A DNA stretch of 64,000 nucleotides, taken from assembly GCF_900116515.1 (NCBI RefSeq), contig NZ_FPBA01000004.1, forward strand, positions 248,001 to 312,000. Direction: 5' to 3'. Position 1 is the first letter of the stretch. Every line of letters begins with the position of its first letter. The notes under the pieces are model-generated. The model did not search any database and was not told where the DNA came from. It saw only the letters and a program-made list of their open reading frames with translations. This document shows, one piece after another, positions 1 through 16,997 of the stretch. The position numbers and the translations under genes were made by a program. Source of the DNA: Geodermatophilus amargosae (lineage in GTDB: Bacteria > Actinomycetota > Actinomycetes > Mycobacteriales > Geodermatophilaceae).

Positions 1-560
1 ACCGCGCCCAGCGGGACGTTGACGAAGAGCACCCACCGCCAGCTGAGCAGGCCGGTGAGCAGGCCGCCGACCACCCCGCCGAGGGCGCTGCCCGAGGCGG
101 CGGCCGCGGTGAGCAGGCTCAGGGCGCGGGCGCGCGCCCGGGGTTCGGCGAACCCGGTCGTGATCAGGCTGAGCGTCGTCGGCACGAGCACCGCGCCGCC
201 GATGCCCTGGACGAAGCGCGCCGCGACCAGCTGCCAGCCCTCCTGGGCCAGGCCGCCGGCCAGGCTGGCGAGGGCGAACAGCGTCAGGCCGCCGAGGAAC
301 GCGCGCTTGCGGCCCCACAGGTCGCCGATCCGCCCCCCGAGGAGGAGGAACCCGGCGAAGGTGAGCGTGTAGCTGCTCACCACCCACTGCAGGCCGGTGG
401 CCGACAGCCCGAGGCTCTCCTGCATCGGGGGCAGGGCGACGTTGACGATCGAGGTGTCCAGGACGCAGATGAACTGCGCGGCGCAGGCGATCGCCAGCAG
501 GACTCCCGGCCGCCGTGGCGGGGCGGCGGCCCGCCCCGCCGCGGGAACCGTGGTCTCCAC
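1..560 (-). CDS. MFS drug-efflux-type transporter (DHA2-like), C-terminus off the left edge
   Basis: Only the first about 186 residues are present; the gene continues past base 1. The protein opens with a Pro/Ala/Arg-rich tail, then a first membrane helix with the DHA2-style motif LDTSIVNVALP, followed by a second helix with GRIGDLWGRKR, the conserved MFS loop between helices 2 and 3. Later helices carry RFVQGIGGAV and SWRWVLFVNVP, also typical of the 14-helix DHA2 family of proton-coupled exporters. The GTG start overlaps the TAG stop of the SnoaL-like gene by one base (TAGTG), so it is the last visible member of the catabolic operon. Export of an aglycone or other product is a reasonable inference; the substrate cannot be read from sequence. 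Confidence 0.85.
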   Translation of the reverse strand, partial: METTVPAAGRAAAPPRRPGVLLAIACAAQFICVLDTSIVNVALPPMQESLGLSATGLQWVVSSYTLTFAGFLLLGGRIGDLWGRKRAFLGGLTLFALASLAGGLAQEGWQLVAARFVQGIGGAVLVPTTLSLITTGFAEPRARARALSLLTAAAASGSALGGVVGGLLTGLLSWRWVLFVNVPLGA

Positions 561-1339
561 TACTTGAACGTGTCCTCGAAGTCGGTGTACGGCACCGGCG
601 GCAGGGGCTCGAGGGTCTGCGCGCGGTCGTTGGCGTAGGGGTGGTACTCGGTCTCGGCCGGCTCGTCGACCGGCGGCAGGAAGACCGGCACGCCGTCGTC
701 GCCGAACCAGGCCAACTGCGAGTCGTGGCTCTCCTGGTTGTCCTTGGCGAAGGAGATCCAGTCCCGGTTGAACGGCGCCCGCGCGACCTCGTAGCAGCGG
801 AAGTGCCAGATGCGCCACTCGCCGTCCTGCTTGACGAAGTCGACGCCGTACTTGCACCAGACCCAGTGCGCCCAGACCGGCTTGCCGTCGACGTCGCCCC
901 CGGAGAGGACCCACGGCGGTACGTTGCGCGCCACCTCGGGGTCCATGAGGCCGGACTCGAGGCCGGCCATGATCCAGATGCCCTTGGCCGTCTGCCCGTC
1001 GGCGCCCACCTCGATGACCGGCGTCGTCGCGTAGTGGAAGAGCAGCTTGCCGACCGGGCGCGGCCGGCCCCGGTGGTAGGCGGTCACCGACTCGTAGGTC
1101 GTGTAGCGACCGACGTTGTTGTAGCGCGACCACATGCCCGGCGTGCCCGGCTGGGCCCAGAGCTCGGCGATGATCCGCTCGTCCTCGTAGGCGTTGTGGT
1201 AGTGCATGTAGCGGTTGAAGACGTTGTCGACCGCGCCGCGGTCCTGCGCACGGGTGGCGGTCAGCTCAGCGGCGGCGAGCCGCTCCTCCAGTGCTGCCAG
1301 GCGCTGCTCGAGCGCCTGCGTCTCGTCGATGGTGGTCAT
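560..1339 (-). CDS. SnoaL-like / NTF2-fold protein, 259 aa
   Basis: An N-terminal coiled-coil-like stretch (about residues 8-35, Leu/Ala/Glu-rich) precedes a SnoaL_4-type domain, seen from the RGAVDNVFNRYMHYHN helix and the later DGEWRIWHFRCYEVAR strand. Family members include polyketide cyclases, dehydratases, small isomerases and many unknowns, so no reaction can be assigned. It sits in the same operon as the oxidases and deglycosidase-like proteins, 110 bases after the fused protein and overlapping the MFS gene. That placement suggests it acts on the released aglycone or a keto-sugar intermediate (inference). No signal peptide is seen, so it is probably cytoplasmic. Confidence 0.75.
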   Translation of the reverse strand: MTTIDETQALEQRLAALEERLAAAELTATRAQDRGAVDNVFNRYMHYHNAYEDERIIAELWAQPGTPGMWSRYNNVGRYTTYESVTAYHRGRPRPVGKLLFHYATTPVIEVGADGQTAKGIWIMAGLESGLMDPEVARNVPPWVLSGGDVDGKPVWAHWVWCKYGVDFVKQDGEWRIWHFRCYEVARAPFNRDWISFAKDNQESHDSQLAWFGDDGVPVFLPPVDEPAETEYHPYANDRAQTLEPLPPVPYTDFEDTFK

Positions 1340-1449: not shown

Positions 1450-2754
1450 TCAGCCGCGGCCTTGCTGCAGCGAGCGCAGCAGGGCGTGCTGGCGACGCAC
1501 CTGGTCACGGCCGCGGTAGGGCTCCCGCCGTCCCTCGTACTCGCTGGACAGCCAGCCGCTCCAGCCGGCGTCCTCCAGGGTCGGGACGATCTCGCCCCAC
1601 GGGACGTGCAGGTCGCGCAGCGAGTCGTCGATCTCGAAGAACTTGGCCTGGATGAAGTGCGTGTGCGGCAGGACCTCGACCAGGTCGGACATGGGCACGC
1701 GCAGCGGGCGCAACGGTGCGGGGATGTCGTCCTCGTCGTCCGTGCCGAGGCTCTCCGCGGCCTCGCGCACGGCGGCGGTCTGGAAGATGCCGGTGTCGAT
1801 GAGCAGCTTGAAGTGCTCGGTACCGGTCTTCTCGATGAAGTCGACGTACCTCTGGGTGACGGGGTGCTCGATCGGTGTCGGCGAGTGGATCTCCGGGCAG
1901 ATGACGACGTCGAGGTCGGCGGCCAGGTCGAGCGAGCGCTCGACGACCTGCTCCCAGATCGGGTGCGGGTCGAGGTCCCAGGAGACGACGCCGAACTTCG
2001 GGCGCACCGAGGTGAAGCCGAGCTCCTTGGCCAGCCGCAGGTCCTGCTGGAGCTGCTCGGCGCCCTCCTCCGCGGTGAGGTCGCGGCCGGAGAACCGGGT
2101 CGTGTCGACCCAGGAGCCGAAGTTCGTGGGCGTGAGGCCGTACTCGGCGACCAGCCCGTGCCAGGAGTCGATCCAGGCCGCGCCGGGCGACGGGTAGCCC
2201 GGCAGGTTGCCCTCACCAAGGACCTCGATGCCGGTCGCCCCCAGGTCGGCGATGTCGGCGAAGACGTCCTCGAGGGTCATCGACGTGTACACGTCGCCGG
2301 TGTAGCTGTAGGTCGAGACGCAGTACCGCAGGCCGCCGTCGGGCACCGGGGGGACGATCACTCCCGAGCCGGCGATCGCGAACTCCGACCGGGCGATCGG
2401 CGGCGGGAAGTAGGAGCGCCGCAGGTAGACCGTCGCCTCGAGGCGGTGGACGCCGACGGACAGGCCGCCGGGCTTCGGCACGGTGATGGTGGCCGGCTCG
2501 TCGAGCTGCCAGCGGACGTCGGTCGAGGCCCGCAGCTCGTCGAGGGTGAAGGTGCGGCCCTGCAGCGTCCACAGCGGCAGGTGGTCGGGGATCCGCTCGC
2601 CGTCGACGACGACCTCGATGCCGTCGAGCATGCTGGCCGGCCCGCCGCGGTAGTTGGGGTTGCGCAGCCGGAAGGAGAAGCCCGTGACCCGGCCGTCCTC
2701 GACGACGTTGCGGAAGCCCCGCCCTTGGATGATCGGGAACTCGAGCACGGTCAT
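1450..2754 (-). CDS. Fused DUF6379 (beta-like) + xylose-isomerase-like TIM barrel (alpha-like): single-chain C-glycoside deglycosidase candidate
   Basis: 434 aa. Residues 1-135 form a DUF6379 domain resembling the two separate small proteins at 6798-7597 (RNPNYRGG, then a VVVDGERIP strand and an LDELRASTDVRW segment). From about residue 141 a sugar-phosphate isomerase/epimerase-type TIM barrel follows in the same frame. Likely metal ligands are E288 and H290 (CPEIHSP), D320 (LLIDTG), H366/Q369 (HFIQAKFF) and E405 (SSEYEG), all matched in the stand-alone barrels nearby. In known C-glycoside deglycosidases the TIM-barrel alpha and DUF6379 beta subunits are separate chains that cleave the C-C bond of a 3-keto-C-glycoside. 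The ATG overlaps the preceding oxidase stop (ATGA). Function is inferred from domain pairing and context. Confidence 0.8.
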   Translation of the reverse strand: MTVLEFPIIQGRGFRNVVEDGRVTGFSFRLRNPNYRGGPASMLDGIEVVVDGERIPDHLPLWTLQGRTFTLDELRASTDVRWQLDEPATITVPKPGGLSVGVHRLEATVYLRRSYFPPPIARSEFAIAGSGVIVPPVPDGGLRYCVSTYSYTGDVYTSMTLEDVFADIADLGATGIEVLGEGNLPGYPSPGAAWIDSWHGLVAEYGLTPTNFGSWVDTTRFSGRDLTAEEGAEQLQQDLRLAKELGFTSVRPKFGVVSWDLDPHPIWEQVVERSLDLAADLDVVICPEIHSPTPIEHPVTQRYVDFIEKTGTEHFKLLIDTGIFQTAAVREAAESLGTDDEDDIPAPLRPLRVPMSDLVEVLPHTHFIQAKFFEIDDSLRDLHVPWGEIVPTLEDAGWSGWLSSEYEGRREPYRGRDQVRRQHALLRSLQQGRG

Positions 2755-4256
2755 GCCCCTTCTCGGAGTTCGGTGACCAGCGCCGTGGCCCCGCGCACGG
2801 CGAGGGCGACGCTGGTGAGGGTGGGGTTCATGGAGTTGGCGGTCGGGATCAGCCCGTTGCCGGCGAGCACCAGGCCGGGCACGCCCCACACCCGCGACCA
2901 CGCGTCGCAGACGCTGGTGCCGTCGTCGGTCTCGCCCATGCGGACGGTCCCCATGTAGTGCAGCGAGCTGCCGGCCGGCATGACCCTGGGCATCCCGTCG
3001 ACGAACTCGCCGAGCGCGGCGGCGGCGCGGGCCTGGTGCTTCCGGGCCCGCTCGAAGTCCGCCTCCTCCAGGTCGGTGAGCTCGTAGGCGATGCGGATGC
3101 CGGGCAGGCCGTTCTCATCGGGCGCGTCGTCCTCGAAGGTGAGCCGGTCCTCCGGCCGGGGCCACTTGCGGAGGCCCCAGCCCATGCCGACGTAGCCACC
3201 GGGGTTGTCGCGGAACCGGCTGCCCTCCGGCAGCGGTACCGGCGAGACGGGGCTGAACATCATCTGCGCGGAGTACGGGTGCCCGTGCTCCTCGTCGAAC
3301 GGGATCGCGATGATGGCCCGGATCGGGTCGACCGGCCCGGCGGGGTCCTCCCGCGGCGGCACGACGTCGCCCCGCACCGCCACCACGCCGAAGAGCAGCG
3401 GGTGCTCGGTCAGGTACCGGCCCAGCGCCTCGGGGCGGATGCCGGAGGCCCACAGCAGCTGCGGGGTGCGCAGCGCGTCGGCGGCCAGGACGACGACGTC
3501 GGCCCGGACCTCCTCCTCCGCGCCGGTGCGCAGGTCGCGCAGCACGGCGCCGACGGCGCGGTCGCCGTCGCGGAGCACCCGCACGCACAGCGTCTCGGCG
3601 CGCAGGGTGAACCTGCCGTCGTCGGGCACGCCGTCGAGGACGACGTCGGTGCCGCTCCACCGCAGGGAGCCGTCCGCCTGCGGGTCGGCGGCCACCGGCA
3701 GGGGGCGCACCGTGATGCCGTCCGGCGCGAACTCGTCGCGGATCCGCTCCAGGATCGCCGCGGCCTGGGGCGCGCCGTCGAAGGACGGCCGGTGGACGTG
3801 CAGCAGCGACTCCGCGACGGCGAGGTGCTGCTCCCAGTCCGCGTCCTCGATGAAGGGGGCGCGCTCCGGCCCGGTCGGAGCGGGCGTGGCGCAGGTCCAG
3901 TGCACGCCCTGGCCGCCGACGCATGTCGCGCCGGCCGCCGCGGGCATGCCCGGGGAACCGTCGGCGGCCCGGCCGATGAGGTGGGTGCCCTGCCGCGCGG
4001 TGATCGTCCCCTCGACGACCACGCCGCCCGGGATGCCGGAGACGCCGCTCTCGTGCGACCGGCCCTGCGAGGCCAGTCGCGCCGCCGCCTGCTCCTCCGG
4101 GTCCGGGACGTTCTTGACGTTCATGCCGATCGGACGGGTCACGACCGGCCCCGCCTCGACCATGAGGACCTCGACGTCCGGGACCTGCTCCAGGAGCAGC
4201 CGGGCGTAGGTGGCTCCGGTCGGCCCGCTGCCGACGATCAGAACTCGGGGGGTCAT
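2751..4256 (-). CDS. GMC-family FAD-dependent oxidoreductase (pyranose/C-glycoside 3-oxidase-like), 501 aa
   Basis: The FAD-binding Rossmann motif GSGPTG lies at residues 9-14, with an acidic VEAGP strand end at about 33-37. The C-terminal GMC domain carries the pyranose-oxidase-type signature LHYMGTVRMG with likely catalytic H433, and N477 in SMNPTLT. Such enzymes oxidise sugar hydroxyls at C2 or C3; the CarA type makes 3-keto-C-glycosides before C-C cleavage. No signal peptide is present, so it acts inside the cell on imported glycoside. It overlaps both neighbours by four bases (ATGA), indicating tight translational coupling with the second oxidase and the fused deglycosidase-like gene. 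Substrate and regiospecificity are inferred from context. Confidence 0.85.
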   Translation of the reverse strand: MTPRVLIVGSGPTGATYARLLLEQVPDVEVLMVEAGPVVTRPIGMNVKNVPDPEEQAAARLASQGRSHESGVSGIPGGVVVEGTITARQGTHLIGRAADGSPGMPAAAGATCVGGQGVHWTCATPAPTGPERAPFIEDADWEQHLAVAESLLHVHRPSFDGAPQAAAILERIRDEFAPDGITVRPLPVAADPQADGSLRWSGTDVVLDGVPDDGRFTLRAETLCVRVLRDGDRAVGAVLRDLRTGAEEEVRADVVVLAADALRTPQLLWASGIRPEALGRYLTEHPLLFGVVAVRGDVVPPREDPAGPVDPIRAIIAIPFDEEHGHPYSAQMMFSPVSPVPLPEGSRFRDNPGGYVGMGWGLRKWPRPEDRLTFEDDAPDENGLPGIRIAYELTDLEEADFERARKHQARAAAALGEFVDGMPRVMPAGSSLHYMGTVRMGETDDGTSVCDAWSRVWGVPGLVLAGNGLIPTANSMNPTLTSVALAVRGATALVTELREGA

Positions 4257-5764
4257 GCGTGCGCCTCCTCGGCGACGGGGGTGGCGGCCAGCGAAGCGGC
4301 CAGGGACCGGGCGGTGAGGACACCGAGCGCGACGGCGGTGAGAGTGGGGTTGCAGGCGGTCGCGGTCGGGATGACGTTGTTGCCGCCGACGTAGAGGTTC
4401 TCGGTGCCCCACACCCGGCCGGTCGGGTCGCAGACGCTCGTGCCGTCGTCGGCCGCACCCATCCGGGTCGTGCCGAGGTAGTGCAGCGAGCTGCCGGGCG
4501 GCATGACGAACGGGTCGCCGAGCGGCTGGCCGAGTGCTCGTGCCGCCCGGCGGACCTCGTCGACAGCCGCGCCGATCGACGCGCGGTCGACGTCGCTGAG
4601 CGCGTAGTCGATGCGGATGGCCGGCAGCCCGTGCTCATCGGCGGCGTCCTCGTCGAACCGGACGCGGTTGTCCGGCGAGAGCTCCTTCCGGCAGAACCAG
4701 CCGAGGCCGACCACCTGACCGGGACGCACGGTCACGCCCGGGTCGAGCGGCATCGGCGAGGCGTCCATCTGCATGACCTGACCGTGGAACGGCCGGTCGG
4801 CGGCGTAGGGCACCCAGGAGACCCCGGAGACGGGGACGATCGCCCCACCCCCGGGCGCGGCGGCCGCCGTGGCCGGGAGGTCGGCGTCGATGGGGGCGTC
4901 CGCCGGGACGTACCGCTCGTCCAGGAGCGAGGCGGCCATGACCTGCGGGTGCTCGGTCAGGTACCGGCCCAGCGCCTGCGGGCGGATGCCCGAGGCCCAG
5001 AGCAGCTGCGGCGTCCGGAACGCGTCGGCGGCGACGACGACGGCACGGGCGGGGATCTGGTGACGCTCCCCGGAGGCGAGGTCGACTGCCTCGACCCCGG
5101 TCACCCGTCCCGCGTCGAGGAGGACCCGCCGGACGAGAGTGCCGGTGCGCAGTTCGACGTCCGTCCGGTCCCACAGGTCCCCCGCGATGATCGCCGGACC
5201 GGTCCAGTGCAGCGTGCCGTCCTCGCCCACCGTGACGGCGACCGGCATCGGTCCGGCCGGGCGGCGGTGCGGACGGTCGAACAGCTCGCCCAGCACCCGC
5301 TGCACCGCGCCGGTCAGGGGCGCCCGGTCGAAGGCGTGCGTCGTGACGGCGAGCAGCGCCTCCGCACGGGTCAGCGCCTCGTCGAGCACAGCGGGGTCGA
5401 CGCAGTCGGGCACCTCGTCGTCCACCGGGCGGGGACAGGCCGCGGTCCAGTGCGCGCCCATCCCGCCGACGTTGGTGGACACCGCGGCGTTGGGCATGTC
5501 CGGAGCGCCGACCAACGTCGTCCCCGGCCGGGCCGGCGTGCCCCCCGGCAGGGGGCCGGGGCCGGTGGCGAGACCGGCGAGCAGCCGGTCGCGCTCGTCG
5601 ACGTCGGCGATGTTCTTGACGTGCCCGCCGGCGGTGTCGCCGAGCGCCTGCCCTGCCTCGAGCACGAGGACCCGCAGGCCGGAGCCGGCGTCGGCCAGCT
5701 CGCGCGCGACCGCCGTCCCCACCGGGCCGGAGCCGACGACGATGACGTCGTACGACCCGCTCAC
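4253..5764 (-). CDS. Second GMC-family FAD-dependent oxidoreductase, 503 aa
   Basis: This is a paralogue of the adjacent oxidase. It has the FAD motif GSGPVG at 11-16, a glycine-rich GGMGAHWTAACP segment matching GGQGVHWTCATP in the neighbour, and C-terminal LHYLGTTRMG with H428 plus N472 in ACNPTLT. The two proteins share long similar blocks (for example RTPQLLWASGIRP and ALGRYLTEHP), so they arose by duplication. The GTG start overlaps the TIM-barrel stop (GTGA). Two oxidases could act on different sugars or anomers, or form a heteromer; sequence alone does not decide. Intracellular, as no signal peptide is visible. Confidence 0.85.
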   Translation of the reverse strand: MSGSYDVIVVGSGPVGTAVARELADAGSGLRVLVLEAGQALGDTAGGHVKNIADVDERDRLLAGLATGPGPLPGGTPARPGTTLVGAPDMPNAAVSTNVGGMGAHWTAACPRPVDDEVPDCVDPAVLDEALTRAEALLAVTTHAFDRAPLTGAVQRVLGELFDRPHRRPAGPMPVAVTVGEDGTLHWTGPAIIAGDLWDRTDVELRTGTLVRRVLLDAGRVTGVEAVDLASGERHQIPARAVVVAADAFRTPQLLWASGIRPQALGRYLTEHPQVMAASLLDERYVPADAPIDADLPATAAAAPGGGAIVPVSGVSWVPYAADRPFHGQVMQMDASPMPLDPGVTVRPGQVVGLGWFCRKELSPDNRVRFDEDAADEHGLPAIRIDYALSDVDRASIGAAVDEVRRAARALGQPLGDPFVMPPGSSLHYLGTTRMGAADDGTSVCDPTGRVWGTENLYVGGNNVIPTATACNPTLTAVALGVLTARSLAASLAATPVAEEAHA

Positions 5765-6795
5765 CGGGCCACCACCACCGAGGCCTCGGCCTCGAGCAGC
5801 CCCTTGAGCATGTCGTGCTGGGCGCGGACCTGGTCGAATGCGTCGTAGCGGTCGCTGTACGCGTGCGCCTCGTACTCGCTGGAGATGAAGCCGGTGTAGC
5901 GCTGCTCGACCAGCACGCGGGCGACCCTCGGCCAGTCGATGGACGGGTCGGTGAGTCCGTCGGGGCCGTCCACGATCCCGTAGAACTTGCCGTGCACGTG
6001 CACCACGTGCGGGAAGAAGTCGGCCCAGCGCTCGGGCTCCATCTTCCCGTGCATCGTGAAGAGCATCTTCAGGTTGCCGACCTGCGCCGGGCTCGCGCCC
6101 GCCTGGGCGGCCCGCCGCTCCAGCTCGGGGAACTTGGCCACCGTCGGGCCGGGCTCGGCCCACAGCTGCTTGGTCATGGCCGTCAGCTCCGGCGAGATGC
6201 CGGCGGCGCGGTGGGCGTCGTCGACGGCCTCCGGGATGGCCCGCATGCTGGAGCTCATGTCGGGGATGAACCCCAGCCACGGGGTGTCCAGCCGGACGAA
6301 GAACTCCTTGAGCGCGGCCACCGGCGGCGCCTCGATCGTCAGCGGCGCGTGGATCTCCACCCCCACCGCGACGCCGAGTTCCTCGGCCAGGGGCAGGAGC
6401 CGCTCCAGGATCGCCGGGCTGGTCTCGACGCCCACCCGGGCGACCGGGAAGCCCAGCGCCGCGGCGCCGCGGACCTGAACGGCCACGTACTCGTAGGACT
6501 CGTCGTCGGTCAGCAGCCGGCCCGGGTAGAGCCCGAGGTCGTTGTTGATGGCCAGGCACGAGGGGGTGAGGCCGGAGGACTCGATCACGCCGCGGACCTC
6601 GCGGACGGCGGCGTCGTCCAGCCGCGGCCAGCCGCGCAGGCTCTGGAAGGCGACCATCTCCAGGCCGGGGCCGAGGTCGCGCGCCGCCACCTCGGCCACC
6701 AGCGAGGCGAAGTCGCGGCCGGGCTTGCGCTGCTCCAGGGAGAGACTGAACAGGGTGGTGCCCAGGCGCGGCAGGCCGGGTGCGGTGTCGGTCAT
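5761..6795 (-). CDS. Xylose-isomerase-like TIM-barrel protein (deglycosidase alpha-like), 344 aa
   Basis: A sugar phosphate isomerase/epimerase-type barrel. Likely metal ligands are E147 and H149 (VEIHAPL), D179 (GFIPDM), H266/H268 (VHVHGKFYG) and E307 (SSEYEA). The spacing matches the other two barrels in the locus, but the fourth position reads HVH where they have HIQ or FIQ, so it is the most divergent of the three. It lies two bases after a DUF6379 gene, the expected alpha/beta gene pairing of C-glycoside deglycosidases. A role as epimerase or isomerase of a keto-sugar remains possible. Confidence 0.75.
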   Translation of the reverse strand: MTDTAPGLPRLGTTLFSLSLEQRKPGRDFASLVAEVAARDLGPGLEMVAFQSLRGWPRLDDAAVREVRGVIESSGLTPSCLAINNDLGLYPGRLLTDDESYEYVAVQVRGAAALGFPVARVGVETSPAILERLLPLAEELGVAVGVEIHAPLTIEAPPVAALKEFFVRLDTPWLGFIPDMSSSMRAIPEAVDDAHRAAGISPELTAMTKQLWAEPGPTVAKFPELERRAAQAGASPAQVGNLKMLFTMHGKMEPERWADFFPHVVHVHGKFYGIVDGPDGLTDPSIDWPRVARVLVEQRYTGFISSEYEAHAYSDRYDAFDQVRAQHDMLKGLLEAEASVVVAR

Positions 6796-6797
6796 CG

Positions 6798-7202
6798 TCA
6801 GGCTCCTGCCGCGGTGAGGGTCTTGTCGGTGAGGCTGGGCGCCACCAGGGGCACCCGGTCCGGGCCGGTGAGGATGTACGGGATCGACAGCCCGAGGAGC
6901 AGCCGCACGCGGTGCTCGCGTCCGGGGGCGGTCTCGACGGGCACGTGCAGCACGACCGGGTCGGTGGTGAACCAGTACTCGTCGCCCTTCTCCGCCAGCG
7001 CGGCGAAAGGATGGCGCTGCCCGTTCACGGTGACCGACAACGAGGAGGGCTCGATGCGCTCCCCGTCCACGGTCAGGTCGACGCGGGCCAGCGAGGGCAG
7101 CGGCAGCGCCCGGTACCAGTGCGAGTAGACGGCGATGTCCAGGCCGTCGGGCGTGGCGGTGAGCGAGTCGGCCCGCACCACCTGGTCGTCGAGGGGTCCC
7201 AT
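6798..7202 (-). CDS. DUF6379 protein (deglycosidase beta-like), 134 aa
   Basis: A small beta-rich protein with the shared pattern WYRALPLPSLARVDLTVDG, then a TVNGQRHPF strand and a GREHRVRLLLGLSIPYI strand. These align with YYRGLALSMVEAVDLVVDG and the matching strands of the neighbouring DUF6379 protein. It is shorter at the N-terminus and lacks the GFR segment (residues 11-13 of the neighbour). Its ATG overlaps the upstream DUF6379 stop (TGATG). In characterised C-glycoside deglycosidases this fold is the beta subunit contacting the alpha barrel. Pairing with the barrel at 5761-6795 is the simplest reading. Confidence 0.7.
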   Translation of the reverse strand: MGPLDDQVVRADSLTATPDGLDIAVYSHWYRALPLPSLARVDLTVDGERIEPSSLSVTVNGQRHPFAALAEKGDEYWFTTDPVVLHVPVETAPGREHRVRLLLGLSIPYILTGPDRVPLVAPSLTDKTLTAAGA

Positions 7203-7597
7203 CAGATCTCCTGGGCAGCGAGGGTCAGGCGCTTGGCGTCCCGGCCGCCGCCGGGCACGGGCATGTACGAGATGCGCAGCCGGACGGCGACGGCGACGTC
7301 GTGCTCCCCCGCGGCCAGCGGCTCGTCGGTCTCGAAGGCGAGCTGCGCCCGCTCCCCCATCTCCCAGCGGTCGTCGGTGGTGCGCGGCAGCTGGTCGAAG
7401 CGGTAGGTGTTCCCGTGCACCGTGAACGTGGTGCGCGCGGCCGGCACGGGCCGGCCGTCGACGACGAGGTCGACGGCCTCGACCATCGACAGCGCCAGGC
7501 CCCGGTAGTAGGGCATCCGGACCTCCACGACGCCGCCGGTGCGTCCGTCGTCGAGCGTGCGGAACCCCTCCTCGCACACGATGTACTTGTCGAACAT
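7202..7597 (-). CDS. DUF6379 protein (deglycosidase beta-like), 131 aa
   Basis: This is the better preserved of the two stand-alone DUF6379 proteins. It has an N-terminal EEGFRTL, then RMPYYRGLALSMVEAVDLVVDG, a TFTVHGNTYRFDQL segment and a DRWEMGE turn, closely following the N-terminal domain of the fused protein at 1450-2754 (GRGFRNV, RNPNYRGG, VDGERIP, LDELRASTDVRW). It is coupled on both sides by one-base TGATG overlaps, to the TIM barrel at 7597-8604 and to the second DUF6379 gene. It probably forms the alpha/beta complex with that barrel. No catalytic residue can be assigned from sequence alone. Confidence 0.75.
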   Translation of the reverse strand: MFDKYIVCEEGFRTLDDGRTGGVVEVRMPYYRGLALSMVEAVDLVVDGRPVPAARTTFTVHGNTYRFDQLPRTTDDRWEMGERAQLAFETDEPLAAGEHDVAVAVRLRISYMPVPGGGRDAKRLTLAAQEI

Positions 7598-8604
7598 CAG
7601 GCGTCCTCTCCGGTGGTCTCGCCGAGCAGGCGGGCGAACATGGCGTGCTGCCGGCGGACCTGCTCGACGCTGTCGACGGGGTGCACGTCCTGGATGTGGC
7701 GGTTGCCCTCGTACTCGCTGGACAGGTAGCCGTCGAAGCCGCCCTCGACGAGCACCGGGACGATCCGGTCGTAGGGGATCGAGTACTCGACCTCGTCCTC
7801 GGTCATCTCGTAGAACTTCGCCTGGATGTGCCCGATCAGGGGCATGTGCTCGAGCATCGCCTTGGGCTCGCTCCAGATGTAGTGCGTCGCCTGGCGGGCC
7901 AGACCGAAGTCCACCGGGCCGCCACCGCGGTAGTTCACGACGTCCATGAGCGCGTGGGTGTCGCCGTGGTCGTCGTAGGTCGAGACGACCAGGTCGACCA
8001 GCTCGGGCTTGGCACCGTCGCGCAGCGCGCGCTCGCTCACGACCCGCGGGAAGCGCTCGACGTAGGTGCCCATGTCCGGCATCAGGCCCAGCGCCGGTGA
8101 GCCGGTCCGGTGCATGACCTCGAGGTGCTGCAGGATCCACGGGTGCTCGTAGTGGAAGGGCGCGTGCACCTCGAGCAGCAGACGGACGCCCTGCTCCTCG
8201 GCGTACGGTGCCGACTCCTCCATCACCTCCGGCGGGGTGTTGATGATCGCCCGGACGACGGTCGCGCCGAGGCGGACGGCGATGTCGACGTCGCGGCAGA
8301 CCGAGGCGACCTGCTCCTCCTGGCTGAGCCAGCGGCCCGGGTGCAGCTTGGTGTCGAGGAAGAGGTCGGTGGCGACCGGCGTCGTCCCGTACCGCTCCAT
8401 CCAGGAGAACCAGGACTCGACGAACTCGTCGCTCACCGCGGGGAAGCCGGGGATCATCTGCTCCGGGATGAGCTCGATGCCGCGGGCGCCGACCTCGCCG
8501 GCGACGCGGATGCAGTCCTCGACGGACATCGTCCGCAGGAAGTACTCCTCCTGGAACGAGTAGAGGCTCACGCCCCGCTTGATCTGGTGTGCCGGTGCGG
8601 TCAC
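7597..8604 (-). CDS. Xylose-isomerase-like TIM-barrel protein (deglycosidase alpha-like), 335 aa
   Basis: The barrel starts with GVSLYSFQEEYFLRT, a segment typical of this isomerase-like family. Likely Mn/metal ligands are E145 and H147 (LEVHAPF), D177 (LMPDM), H259/Q261 (GHIQAKFYE) and E297 (SSEYEG). The GTG start at 8604 was chosen because GGGAGG lies about 9 bases upstream; the open frame extends further but without a start site or homology. The gene overlaps the following DUF6379 gene (TGATG), giving an alpha-beta pair. The predicted role is cleavage of a 3-keto-C-glycoside or related keto-sugar chemistry, inferred from the pairing with DUF6379 and GMC oxidases. Confidence 0.75.
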   Translation of the reverse strand: MTAPAHQIKRGVSLYSFQEEYFLRTMSVEDCIRVAGEVGARGIELIPEQMIPGFPAVSDEFVESWFSWMERYGTTPVATDLFLDTKLHPGRWLSQEEQVASVCRDVDIAVRLGATVVRAIINTPPEVMEESAPYAEEQGVRLLLEVHAPFHYEHPWILQHLEVMHRTGSPALGLMPDMGTYVERFPRVVSERALRDGAKPELVDLVVSTYDDHGDTHALMDVVNYRGGGPVDFGLARQATHYIWSEPKAMLEHMPLIGHIQAKFYEMTEDEVEYSIPYDRIVPVLVEGGFDGYLSSEYEGNRHIQDVHPVDSVEQVRRQHAMFARLLGETTGEDA

Positions 8605-8618
8605 CGAGGTCCTCCCGG

Positions 8619-9845
<1,227 letters not shown>

Positions 9846-9872
9846 GACTGCTCCTGCGGCGGGATCGGGTGG

Positions 9873-10793
9873 TCAGGACGGGCTGTCGGCGGGGGCGGGC
9901 CTGCGCGGGTCCACCCAGTGCGGGAGGTCCCAGGGCCGGGCGAGGGCCTCGCGGAGCCGGGCGGCGAGCTCGGTCCGCTCCGGGAGGGGTGAGCCGCGTC
10001 CGTCCTCGCGGGGGTACACGCGGCAGGTGAGGGCGGCGGGGGCGGCGACGGGGAACAGGTCGCGCCGGCCGACCTGGAAGGTCGGCGACCCGGGGAAGCC
10101 GAGCCGTGCCGCCTCCTCCCGGCTGCGGACCTCCCGCTCGACGACGTGCACCTCTCCCCTGCCGAGGTCGGCGAGGGTGCCGCGGAGCAGGTCGGCGGCC
10201 CGGTCGTGCGACGGGCAGCCGGCCCACCAGAGCAGCTCGACCCGCCACTTGACCGAGCAGCCCGCCGGGGAGGTCACCGGGCGGGCGACGTCCCGTCCGG
10301 CGAGCACGTCCTCCAGCGCCTCCCGGAGCCACGCGGCGTCCTGGGCGGGGTCGTCGTGGTCGGCGTCAGGTGCGCCGTGGTACCGCACGAGCCCGGCGCG
10401 GTCGACGACGAAGACCTCCGGTGTGGCCGTCGCCCCGTAGGCCTGCGCCACCGCCTGGTCGGCGTCGCGCAGGAAGGGGCCGGCGAGCTCGCCCGCGGCC
10501 ACGCGCCGGCGCATGCCCTCGGGCGAGTCCTCGGGGTGGTCGGTCTCGTCGTTGCTGACGACCTGCAGGACGACGACGCGGTCGGCGTGGTCCCGGGCCA
10601 CGGCCTGGAGGCGGTCGTGCCAGGCCAGGGCGAAGGGGCAGCCGTTCGACGTGAACACGACCACGGTGGCCTCGTGCGCGGCGGGCTCCATGCCGATCGG
10701 TGTCCCGTCGGTGTCCGGGAGGGCGAACAGCGGTGCGTGCTCCCCCACTGTCAGCCGTGCCGCGCTGGTGCCGGCGTGGACCTGATCGGACAC
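9873..10793 (-). CDS. AhpC/TSA-type thioredoxin-fold protein fused to a second thiol domain, 306 aa
   Basis: Residues about 10-155 form a peroxiredoxin/AhpC-TSA-like domain (HAPLFALPDTDGTPI, then TSNGCPFALAWHDR with a single Cys at the usual position, and a cis-Pro-like TATPEVFVVD). A second thioredoxin-like domain follows from about 185, with LLWWAGCPSHDRA, the LGFPGSPTFQV cis-Pro region and a later Cys. The GTG start is supported by GAGGAGG six bases upstream. It is the first gene of the catabolic operon, directly after the shared operator. Removal of H2O2 made by the GMC oxidases is an attractive but unproven role. Confidence 0.75.
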   Translation of the reverse strand: MSDQVHAGTSAARLTVGEHAPLFALPDTDGTPIGMEPAAHEATVVVFTSNGCPFALAWHDRLQAVARDHADRVVVLQVVSNDETDHPEDSPEGMRRRVAAGELAGPFLRDADQAVAQAYGATATPEVFVVDRAGLVRYHGAPDADHDDPAQDAAWLREALEDVLAGRDVARPVTSPAGCSVKWRVELLWWAGCPSHDRAADLLRGTLADLGRGEVHVVEREVRSREEAARLGFPGSPTFQVGRRDLFPVAAPAALTCRVYPREDGRGSPLPERTELAARLREALARPWDLPHWVDPRRPAPADSPS

Positions 10794-14359: not shown

Positions 14360-15631
14360 TCAGATCGCGCGGCGCCGCGCGGTCGCCGACGCGACCTCGG
14401 GACGTCCCGACGGAGACCCGTCGGACAGCCACAGCGGCAGGCAGGACGGCTCGAACAGGTTGTCGAGGGCGAGGTGGACCGCGCCCGCGAGACCCGCGGC
14501 GTCGCCCAGCATCGACAGCTCGATGCGCAGCGTCCGGGTCGCCAGGGGCAGCGACCGTCGGTACACCGACTCGCGGATCGCCGCGAGGACGTGGTCACCG
14601 GCATGGACCACCCCGCCACCGAGGACGACCAGCCCGGGGTTGTAGAAGCTGACCAGGGTGGCGAGCGTGGCACCCACGAGACGACCGGCCCGGGCCAGGA
14701 GACCGTGGGCCGCGGGATCACCCCGATCGGCTGCGGTGGTCACGTCGGCGACCGACACGGATCCCCGTGCGGCCAGCACCCCGGCCAGGACGGGACTGTC
14801 CCCGCTCTCGGCCAGCTGCCGGCCGTACCGGGCGAGCGCATCGCCTCCTGCCACCGCCTCGAGGCAGCCGGTGTTGCCGCACCGGCAGACGACGGTGTCG
14901 GCGTCGGTGACCGCCACGTGGCCGACGTCACCCGCGCACCCGTCGACCCCGCGGTGGACCCGGCCGCCGGAGACGAGCCCCGCACCGATGCCGGTACCGA
15001 TCTTGAGGTACAGGAGATCGGCGGCCTCGGCAGCGGCCGGGTTCGTCCGCAGCTCCCCCAGCGCGAGGACGTTGACGTCGTTGTCCACCCACACCGGCGC
15101 GCCGAAGCGCGCGGACAACCGCTCGCGGATGGGATGGCCGTCCCATCCGGGCATGATCGGCGGGGCGACGGGACGGGAGGTCGCGAACTCCACCGGTCCG
15201 GGGACGCCCACTCCCAGGCCCCACAGCGGAGGAGGATCGGCGAGCCGGCCGAGCAGGTCGGCGACCAACTCCTCGACACGGCCGAGCACGACGTCGGGAC
15301 CAGCGGCGACGTCGGCCGGTTCCCGGGCCTGCACGAGCACTCTGCCGGCCAGGTCGGCCAGTCCCACGGCCATCCCGGTCGCCCCGATGTCGATGCCCGC
15401 GACGAGCCCCGCGGAGTCGCGCAGGCGCAGCAGGCGCGGGGCGCGGCCGCCGTTGGACGGAGCCAGCCCGTCCTGGACCACGAGTCCGGCCGACTCCAGC
15501 CGGCCGACCCGCTGGGCGACCACCGTCCGGCCGAGCCCCAGTTGCCGCGCGAGTTGAGCCTGCGTCACCCCGTGGCCGGCCCGGACCGCGTCGAGGACGG
15601 CCACCAGACCGTCCATCCGCTCACCGGCCAT
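14360..15631 (-). CDS. ROK-family transcriptional repressor (NagC/XylR type), 423 aa
   Basis: An N-terminal winged helix-turn-helix (VTQAQLARQLGLGRTVVAQRVGRLESAGLV, about residues 22-51) is followed by a ROK sugar-kinase-like domain. That domain includes the zinc-binding CRCGNTGCLEAVAGG motif and an upstream GH dipeptide, and such domains usually bind a sugar effector. A third copy of the operator repeat lies 54 bases upstream of its start, suggesting autoregulation. Together with the operators before the importer and catabolic operons, it is the best candidate for the local regulator. It may instead share the sites with the paralogue upstream. Confidence 0.85.
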   Translation of the reverse strand: MAGERMDGLVAVLDAVRAGHGVTQAQLARQLGLGRTVVAQRVGRLESAGLVVQDGLAPSNGGRAPRLLRLRDSAGLVAGIDIGATGMAVGLADLAGRVLVQAREPADVAAGPDVVLGRVEELVADLLGRLADPPPLWGLGVGVPGPVEFATSRPVAPPIMPGWDGHPIRERLSARFGAPVWVDNDVNVLALGELRTNPAAAEAADLLYLKIGTGIGAGLVSGGRVHRGVDGCAGDVGHVAVTDADTVVCRCGNTGCLEAVAGGDALARYGRQLAESGDSPVLAGVLAARGSVSVADVTTAADRGDPAAHGLLARAGRLVGATLATLVSFYNPGLVVLGGGVVHAGDHVLAAIRESVYRRSLPLATRTLRIELSMLGDAAGLAGAVHLALDNLFEPSCLPLWLSDGSPSGRPEVASATARRRAI

Positions 15632-15728: not shown

Positions 15729-16997
15729 TCAGGCCGGCAGTGCCCGCTCCTCCACCAGGGCGTCCGGGGTCCCCCCGGCCCGGGCGTCGAGAACGGTCGG
15801 CAAGTGCTCGGGACTGAACAGCTCACCGAGCGCGAACTCCACGGCGCCGGTGATGCCGGCTATCTCCTGGTCGAACGCCGACGGCTCGATCCGCAGGTCC
15901 CGTGTGACGGCGGGGAGTGCCGACCGGTGGACCTCCTCGCGGATCGCTGCCAGGACGTGGGCACGCGCCCGGGCGATGCCGCCGCCGATCACCACCAGGT
16001 CGGGGTCGAACACGTTGACCAACGTCGCCAGGCTGCGCCCGAGCAGGACCGCCGCCCTGTTCAGCAGGGCACGGGCGGCCGCGTCGCCGGATCCGGCCGC
16101 CTCGGTGACGTCACCGGGGCGGATCCGACCGGTTCGTCCCAGGACGTCGGCGAGTGCCGGGCTCTGCCCGGTCTCGGCGAGCAGCCGGCCGTCCCGCGCC
16201 AGTGCCGCTCCACCGGCGACCGCCTCGAGACAGCCGGTCTTGCCGCAGCGGCACACGACGTCGGCTGCGCCCGGCACCGGGACGTGGTCGATGGCACCGG
16301 CGAGTCCGTGCGCCCCTCGGTGGATGCGGCCGCCCACGACCACCGCCGCGCCGATGCCGTAGCCCCCACCCAGGTAGACCATGTGCTGGGACCGCGCAGC
16401 GACCGGGTTCACCCGTCGCTCCCCCAGGGCCGAGAGGTTCGTGCGGTTGTCCATCCACACGGGGACCCCGAAGCGGTCGGTCAGGCGCTGGCGGGTCGGG
16501 TGGCGGCTCCACTCGGGCATGGTGGGCATCGCGGCCGGACCCCCGTCGTCGTAGGCCACCGGCCCCGGCATGCCGACACCGAAGGACCACAGGCTCCGGT
16601 GAGCGCCGACCTCCTCGACGAGCTCGCCGGCCATCTCCTCGACCGCGCCCATGACGGCGTCCGGGCCGTCGACGACGTCGGTCTCCCGGTGCCGGGTGTC
16701 CAGCAGGTTGCCCGCGAGGTCGGCCACCCCGACCACCAGCTCGTTGGTGGCGATGTCGGCCCCCAGCACGTAGCCGGCCTCGGCGTGCAGCCGCAGGCGG
16801 CGCGGGGCCCGGCCACCGGTCGAGGGCCCGAAACCGTCGGACACGACCAGGCCGGCCACCTCCAGCTCCGCGACGCGCTGCGCGACCACGCTGCGGCCGA
16901 GGCCCACCCGCTCGACGAGGAGCGGCTGGGTGATGTCCGCGGAGTTGCGGATGGCACCGAGCACCGCAGCGAGGCCGGTGTAGCGATCACTCGGCAC
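15729..16997 (-). CDS. Second ROK-family transcriptional repressor, 422 aa
   Basis: The layout is the same as its neighbour: helix-turn-helix with ITQPLLVERVGLGRSVVAQRVAELEVAGLV, then a ROK domain with CRCGKTGCLEAVAGG. The two proteins are clearly paralogous over the whole length. The GTG start at 16997 is supported by GGAGG seven bases upstream. No good copy of the 9-7-9 repeat is visible upstream of this gene. Two related repressors in tandem might respond to different sugars, for example the intact glycoside and the released sugar. Confidence 0.85.
   Translation of the reverse strand: MPSDRYTGLAAVLGAIRNSADITQPLLVERVGLGRSVVAQRVAELEVAGLVVSDGFGPSTGGRAPRRLRLHAEAGYVLGADIATNELVVGVADLAGNLLDTRHRETDVVDGPDAVMGAVEEMAGELVEEVGAHRSLWSFGVGMPGPVAYDDGGPAAMPTMPEWSRHPTRQRLTDRFGVPVWMDNRTNLSALGERRVNPVAARSQHMVYLGGGYGIGAAVVVGGRIHRGAHGLAGAIDHVPVPGAADVVCRCGKTGCLEAVAGGAALARDGRLLAETGQSPALADVLGRTGRIRPGDVTEAAGSGDAAARALLNRAAVLLGRSLATLVNVFDPDLVVIGGGIARARAHVLAAIREEVHRSALPAVTRDLRIEPSAFDQEIAGITGAVEFALGELFSPEHLPTVLDARAGGTPDALVEERALPA

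Follow-up and report, generated by a model that had tools for sequence, protein, structure and literature searches.

A putative single-chain C-glycoside deglycosidase in a gene cluster of Geodermatophilus amargosae, with its fused and unfused relatives

The fused gene and its neighbours

The analysed window (the whole stretch of DNA, 64,000 nucleotides) carries on its minus strand, at 1450..2754, a gene for a 434-residue protein, here referred to as the fusion, that is annotated as a putative single-chain C-glycoside deglycosidase (CGD). As the sequence-only reading had claimed, the frame is single and open, with no stop inside its 434 codons, and it joins an N-terminal beta domain to a TIM barrel. 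Pfam detected the C-glycoside deglycosidase beta subunit domain CGDB (PF19906) at residues 7-115 (E 1.8e-37, 128 bits versus a cut-off of 27.6) and the TIM barrel AP_endonuc_2 (PF01261) at residues 165-428 (E 8e-17, over its cut-off); NCBIfam, searched up to E 0.01, yielded no family for either the fused protein or the other CGD modules. We divided the fusion into a beta module (2380..2754, minus; residues 1-125, with PF19906 and Tyr35), a linker (2335..2379, minus; residues 126-140), at which unfused overlapping pairs have a stop and a start, and an alpha TIM-barrel module of the DfgA type (1453..2334, minus; residues 141-434), assigned by PF01261 and by its placement on the alpha tree. Third-position G+C is 0.99 in the beta module, 0.93 in the linker and 0.97 in the alpha module. 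The plus-strand frame at 1450-2754 is likewise open; an open frame on the opposite strand is not unusual in G+C-rich DNA.

Directly upstream lie two GMC oxidase genes, both coding for glycoside 3-oxidase homologues. The stop codon of the first (2751..4256, minus) shares the bases ATGA with the ATG start of the fusion, and the second (4253..5764, minus) probably starts with GTG. The best solved relatives of both are 7qf8 and 7dve, that is PsG3Ox and MtCarA, described as glycoside 3-oxidases of soil bacteria (PMC10646112). Both products remain under the NCBIfam pyranose oxidase cut-off, with 183 and 187 bits versus 545.

The two modules of the fusion are also encoded separately in adjoining genes, which agrees with what had been read from the sequence. 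These are an alpha subunit of the AgCGD2 type (5761..6795, minus; best PDB match 7dnm_A, E 1.1e-57), which falls in the AgCGD2 branch of the alpha tree, beta subunit 2 (6798..7202, minus; PF19906, E 3.6e-10), beta subunit 3 (7202..7597, minus; PF19906, E 4.8e-31) and an alpha subunit of the D. aerius CGD type (7597..8604, minus; best PDB match 8qvc_A, E 1.4e-112), probably with a GTG start. For these separate modules the gene ends were checked and the starts, including that of beta subunit 2, were inferred. A SnoaL_4 protein (560..1339, minus; PF13577, E 4.7e-16) is encoded directly downstream of the fusion, so that the order on the minus strand is D. aerius-type alpha, two betas, AgCGD2-type alpha, two GMC oxidases, fusion and SnoaL_4. 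Four CGDB domains were found in the whole genome.

Further upstream, genes for an ABC ATPase, two permeases and a binding protein were named by inspection, as were two adjacent ROK-like regulators at 14360-15631 and 15729-16997 of the window, upstream of the transporter genes. The first regulator has homologues near several of the relatives as well, fused and unfused alike. The cluster extends past the start of the window (contig positions 229000-248500) with a third CGDB/TIM pair and additional TIM barrels, together with genes that by inspection resemble those for a ThuA-like protein, an aromatic FAD monooxygenase and a BCCT transporter.

Solved relatives and distribution of the fused form

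A phmmer search matched the 435-residue chain 8qrz_A across residues 3-429 of the fusion (455 bits, E 2.6e-135). The fusion was also modelled with AlphaFold2 from an input of 26 fused sequences (mean pLDDT 88.5, pTM 0.89), and 8UN2 and 8QRZ are the top two Foldseek matches of this model (TM 0.92-0.93). Both entries are titled Microbacterium testaceum C-glucosyl deglycosidase, wild type, and were released on 2025-04-23. Like the fusion, the M. testaceum enzyme is one chain of about 435 residues, with the beta domain N-terminal and the alpha barrel C-terminal, at 49-50% identity. Since 8QRZ and 8UN2 are one chain that matches the fusion end to end, a single-chain enzyme of this kind is already known. 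Our literature searches found no paper on 8QRZ or 8UN2 and no passage on fused CGDs. Thus, the proposal of a natural beta-alpha CGD fusion is supported by family, fold and gene neighbourhood, while the novelty it implied did not stand, both because of these entries and because the fusion is frequent. Judged by its sequence, the fused protein belongs with the M. testaceum-type single-chain CGDs, and the join itself is not unprecedented.

After 8QRZ, the best-scoring solved alpha and beta chains were those of EuCGD (DfgA-DfgB, PDB 7BVS). EuCGD DfgA and the fused alphas share a common branch holding 22 of the 28 rows of the alpha tree (support 100/98); unlike the fusion, EuCGD keeps the His ligand and consists of two chains, arranged as alpha4beta4 (PMC8563793). 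The same source describes EuCGD as being without a lid, and the fused alpha, being as short as the EuCGD alpha, is therefore probably lidless too. AgCGD2 (AgCarB2-C2, PDB 7DNM/7DNN) shares with the fusion the two domains, the catalytic His and Glu and four of five metal ligands, but it has two chains, falls in a separate alpha branch and carries a lid on its alpha subunit (PMC8563793). The D. aerius CGD (PDB 8QVC, 8UMC) has the same domain pair, again in two chains. AtOGE, an O-glycoside beta-eliminase, is also a TIM barrel and has Mn and a catalytic His; unlike the fusion it is without a beta subunit and acts on O-glycosides, and it is described as unrelated in sequence (PMC10628242). Of the features that define the CGD/CGE enzymes PuCGD, EuCGD and AgCGD2, the fusion shows a TIM-barrel alpha module homologous to DgpC, DfgA and AgCarB2; it departs from them in being one frame instead of two separate chains.

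The database survey for the same fusion, with the fused protein as query and one genome per species, yielded 39 loci. It reaches close relatives only, and therefore the fused share says nothing about distant ones. Both modules were fused in one frame at 26 loci (25 actinobacterial and one from Marinomonas), and at ten loci beta and then alpha were two genes with a 4-base overlap (ATGA in eight, GTGA in two). A Bacteroidetes locus (L060) has alpha before beta, and at one further locus (L062) there was no beta match. The Streptomyces harenosi copy (L048:6001-7286) is disrupted, with frame changes in both modules. The best named match is a Geodermatophilus obscurus record with 98% identity. Judged from these sequences, the fusion is frequent among close relatives. 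The N-terminal place of the beta module, to which the sequence-only reading had drawn attention, has a plain reading, as beta comes first in the ten unfused relatives too, where it overlaps alpha by 4 bases. Fused copies, together with unfused relatives whose two genes overlap by 4 bases where the others are joined, form a natural series for studying the fusing of a two-chain enzyme.

In the family to which this genome belongs, full-length fused copies were found in 14 of 112 genomes (this one counted), and the copies of the 13 others are 63-98% identical to that of the window; together with the third-position G+C, they rule out that the fusion is a sequencing slip. In the phylum at large the CGDB domain is rare: of 396 genomes sampled, three, this one among them, had a match above its cut-off. 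Two other loci from genomes of the phylum (L071:1456-2985 and L072:629-2149) showed an N-terminal PF25653 match and a sub-cut-off CGDB match before a URO-D domain. Eight plasmid records matched. The Arthrobacter one (L066) carries a fused gene; the other seven are sphingomonad records in which the match covers alpha only, and the two that were opened have alpha and then beta as separate genes. No relative of the fusion was found in viral contigs.

Origin of the single chain and the active-site residues

The main tree, built without L048 and L062, holds 45 rows, and its 30 fused rows form two clades. Clade A, with Geodermatophilaceae, Streptomyces, Actinomadura and relatives, and Marinomonas, stands beside the ten overlapping beta-alpha pairs (96/88), while clade B, with Microbacteriaceae, the Arthrobacter plasmid and 8qrz, stands beside two sphingomonad alpha-beta pairs (98/99). 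Thus, 8QRZ lies in the other fused group, by unfused sphingomonad pairs, and the window's group lies by unfused beta-alpha pairs, a separation that depends on the sphingomonad rows.

A single clade of the DfgA-type fused rows was rejected on alpha plus beta (AU p 0.0003), without four long rows (p 0.00013) and on alpha alone (p 0.002), and it was not rejected on beta alone (p 0.205). When one sphingomonad row was dropped at a time, the single clade was still rejected (p 0.0026 and 0.0013); when both (L067 and L068) were dropped, the fused rows came out together at a branch supported by 43/6, a value that neither establishes nor rejects a single clade. Since dropping both removes the rejection, the two-fusion reading of the DfgA type hangs on L067 and L068, which are long branches. 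We favour two fusions within the DfgA type, as these trees suggest, a reading resting on the two sphingomonad rows; the alternative is a single DfgA-type fusion with a later split and a reversal of order in the sphingomonads.

The five clade-B loci with flanks hold, besides the DfgA-type fusion, a second single-frame gene of 489-500 residues that joins a beta and an alpha of the AgCGD2 type (L044:3965-5467, L045:3362-4864, L046:7307-8776, L047:7327-8805 and L066:7319-8797). Pfam, run on three of the five, detected both domains. The best PDB matches of the two halves of the L066 protein are 7dnm_A and 7dnm_B, and among its 13 PDB matches 8qrz (96 bits) is the only single-chain entry. On the alpha tree, the fused alpha of the window groups with DfgA of EuCGD, and its two stand-alone alphas group with AgCGD2 and with the D. 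aerius enzyme. As AgCGD2 and the window's own AgCGD2-type pair are unfused and sit in a separate alpha branch, fusion occurred in more than one type.

Mori et al. (PMC8563793) give E147, D179, H269, K271 and E305 as the metal ligands of AgCGD2 and H149 and E307 as its catalytic residues, numbers that we checked against the printed chain. The equivalent positions in the fusion are E288, D320, Q369, K371 and E405 for the ligands and H290 and E407 for catalysis. It had been claimed that all likely metal ligands are conserved, which does not hold: four of the five are kept, and the Mn-binding His269 is replaced by Gln369. As only four are kept, the fusion was filed under the M. testaceum type and not under the strict CGD ligand set. 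The letters at these ligand and catalytic positions (E, H, D, Q, K, E, E) are identical in 8qrz and the fusion. Gln occupies the position of the His ligand in all 30 fused rows (8qrz included), in the ten overlapping pairs and in both sphingomonad pairs, and His is found in L060 and L065. Equivalents of H290 and E407 are present in 45 of the 45 aligned rows, as is Tyr35, which corresponds to Tyr39-beta of PuCGE by an offset of 4, residues 13-116 being aligned with 17-120 of 7bvr_B.

The distribution of His and Gln over the 28 rows of the alpha tree calls for two changes. The first falls on the branch of the fused rows and their unfused relatives (support 100/99), and the second on the window's own D. 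aerius-type alpha (7597-8604), apart from the fused clade. The D. aerius CGD alpha keeps His, whereas Gln was found in all seven full copies of the D. aerius-type alpha that cover the position (L019, L021-L024, L026 and the window's own copy). The unfused relatives share the branch-wide Gln, and hence it is probably older than the fusions. The fixed change departs from a ligand set described as conserved in three structures.

It is possible, if rather doubtful, that the whole history ran as follows: the single chain arose several times, separately in the AgCGD2 type and perhaps twice in the DfgA type, and His gave way to Gln in the DfgA-type set, fused or not, before any fusion and, independently, in the window's D. 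aerius-type alpha. If so, the metal site would hold another metal or support another chemistry, and nature would provide fused and unfused relatives for measuring the effect of fusion. As the kind of enzyme is already known, the remaining interest lies in repeated fusion and in the fixed His-to-Gln change.

Proposed function and mechanism

The fused protein is most likely a single-chain 3-oxo-C-glucoside beta-eliminase, to judge from its families and solved relatives. We consider it probable that, as an M. testaceum-type CGD, it carries out the second step of glucose removal from aryl C-glycosides, perhaps also from O-glycosides. In the first step, one of the two adjacent GMC oxidases would oxidise the sugar at C3. 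The 3-oxo sugar would then be bound at a divalent metal held by E288, D320, K371 and E405, and perhaps Q369; H290, aided by E407, would remove the proton from the sugar C2, and beta-elimination would break the C1-aryl bond to yield the aglycone and 1,5-anhydro-hex-1-en-3-ulose. The beta module would close the aglycone pocket and offer Tyr35 to the phenolate, a role that is proposed for Tyr39-beta in PuCGE and backed by mutation (PMC10628242): in the Phe mutant, C-glucoside cleavage is nearly abolished, with only a 2.4-fold loss on an O-glucoside. The fusion would swap a two-chain complex for one chain, with the ratio fixed at 1:1. Such single-chain forms would be simpler catalysts than alpha4beta4 complexes for freeing aglycones from C-glucosides.

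The gene neighbourhood supports the oxidation-first order. Of the 27 fused loci that have flanks, 24 carry a gene homologous to the GMC oxidases of the window within the fetched stretch; at 13 loci this gene sits immediately upstream in the same orientation. All ten overlapping unfused pairs have one directly upstream, within 60 bases or overlapping. In the fetched stretches of the other three fused loci (L047, L061 and L066), no homologue of these oxidases was found, which counts against the proposed function, as does the position of the window's oxidases below the NCBIfam pyranose oxidase cut-off. In the Marinomonas locus (L061), a gene (4668-5771) of the Gfo/Idh/MocA family, to which the DgpA oxidiser belongs, lies directly upstream of the fusion instead, and a GMC-family gene that is not a close homologue of the window's oxidases lies downstream (8643-10280).

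The replacement of His269 by Gln is a further point against the proposed function, as mutation of this ligand to Ala dramatically reduced the activity of PuCGD and MiCGD (PMC8563793). However, 8QRZ also has Gln, and therefore the change need not inactivate the enzyme, the function of 8QRZ being indicated by its title alone. With regard to substrate, the DfgA gene set is described to deglycosylate homoorientin and isovitexin (PMC8563793), and since the fused alpha groups with DfgA (100/98), C6-glucosyl flavones are a reasonable first guess. As the stand-alone alphas of the window fall elsewhere on the tree, a substrate different from theirs is plausible for the fusion.

An unlikely alternative is that the protein acts chiefly as a 3-oxo-O-glycoside beta-eliminase: with oxidised O-glucosides the aryl ring would not have to be activated, and the altered metal site could be enough. 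PuCGE also cleaves 3-keto-phlorizin, with about 1.4% of that activity kept by isolated PuCGE-alpha (PMC10628242), and actinobacterial oxidases are reported to accept O-glycosides as well, though to a smaller degree (PMC10807413). On the other hand, AtOGE is described as working without a beta subunit (PMC10628242), whereas the beta module and Tyr35 are kept in all 45 rows, and 8QRZ is titled a C-glucosyl deglycosidase.

There is a slim chance that the fusion is an isomerase, epimerase or hydratase of the released 3-keto sugar, with cleavage left to the separate pairs. This would fit the two other alpha/beta pairs that adjoin the fusion, the replaced His ligand and the epimerases among the AP_endonuc_2 barrels, which appear lower in the Foldseek list; it fits poorly with the beta domain, the retained catalytic His and Glu and the full-length 8QRZ match, and for some fused loci (L028-L035) the fetched flank showed no further alpha/beta pair. 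An assembly artefact, in which two overlapping genes were wrongly joined, might be suspected from the 4-base gene overlap at that very point in ten unfused relatives; it is rejected by the fused copies at 26 of the 39 loci, from many species, by the solved single chain of 435 residues and by a linker that stays in frame in all 26 aligned fused rows.

Returning to the single-chain beta-eliminase that we prefer, the SnoaL_4 protein encoded directly downstream of it showed weak matches to the SnoaL-like chains 8abt, 8abu and 8abv and, as a guess, perhaps acts on the aglycone or on the released sugar.
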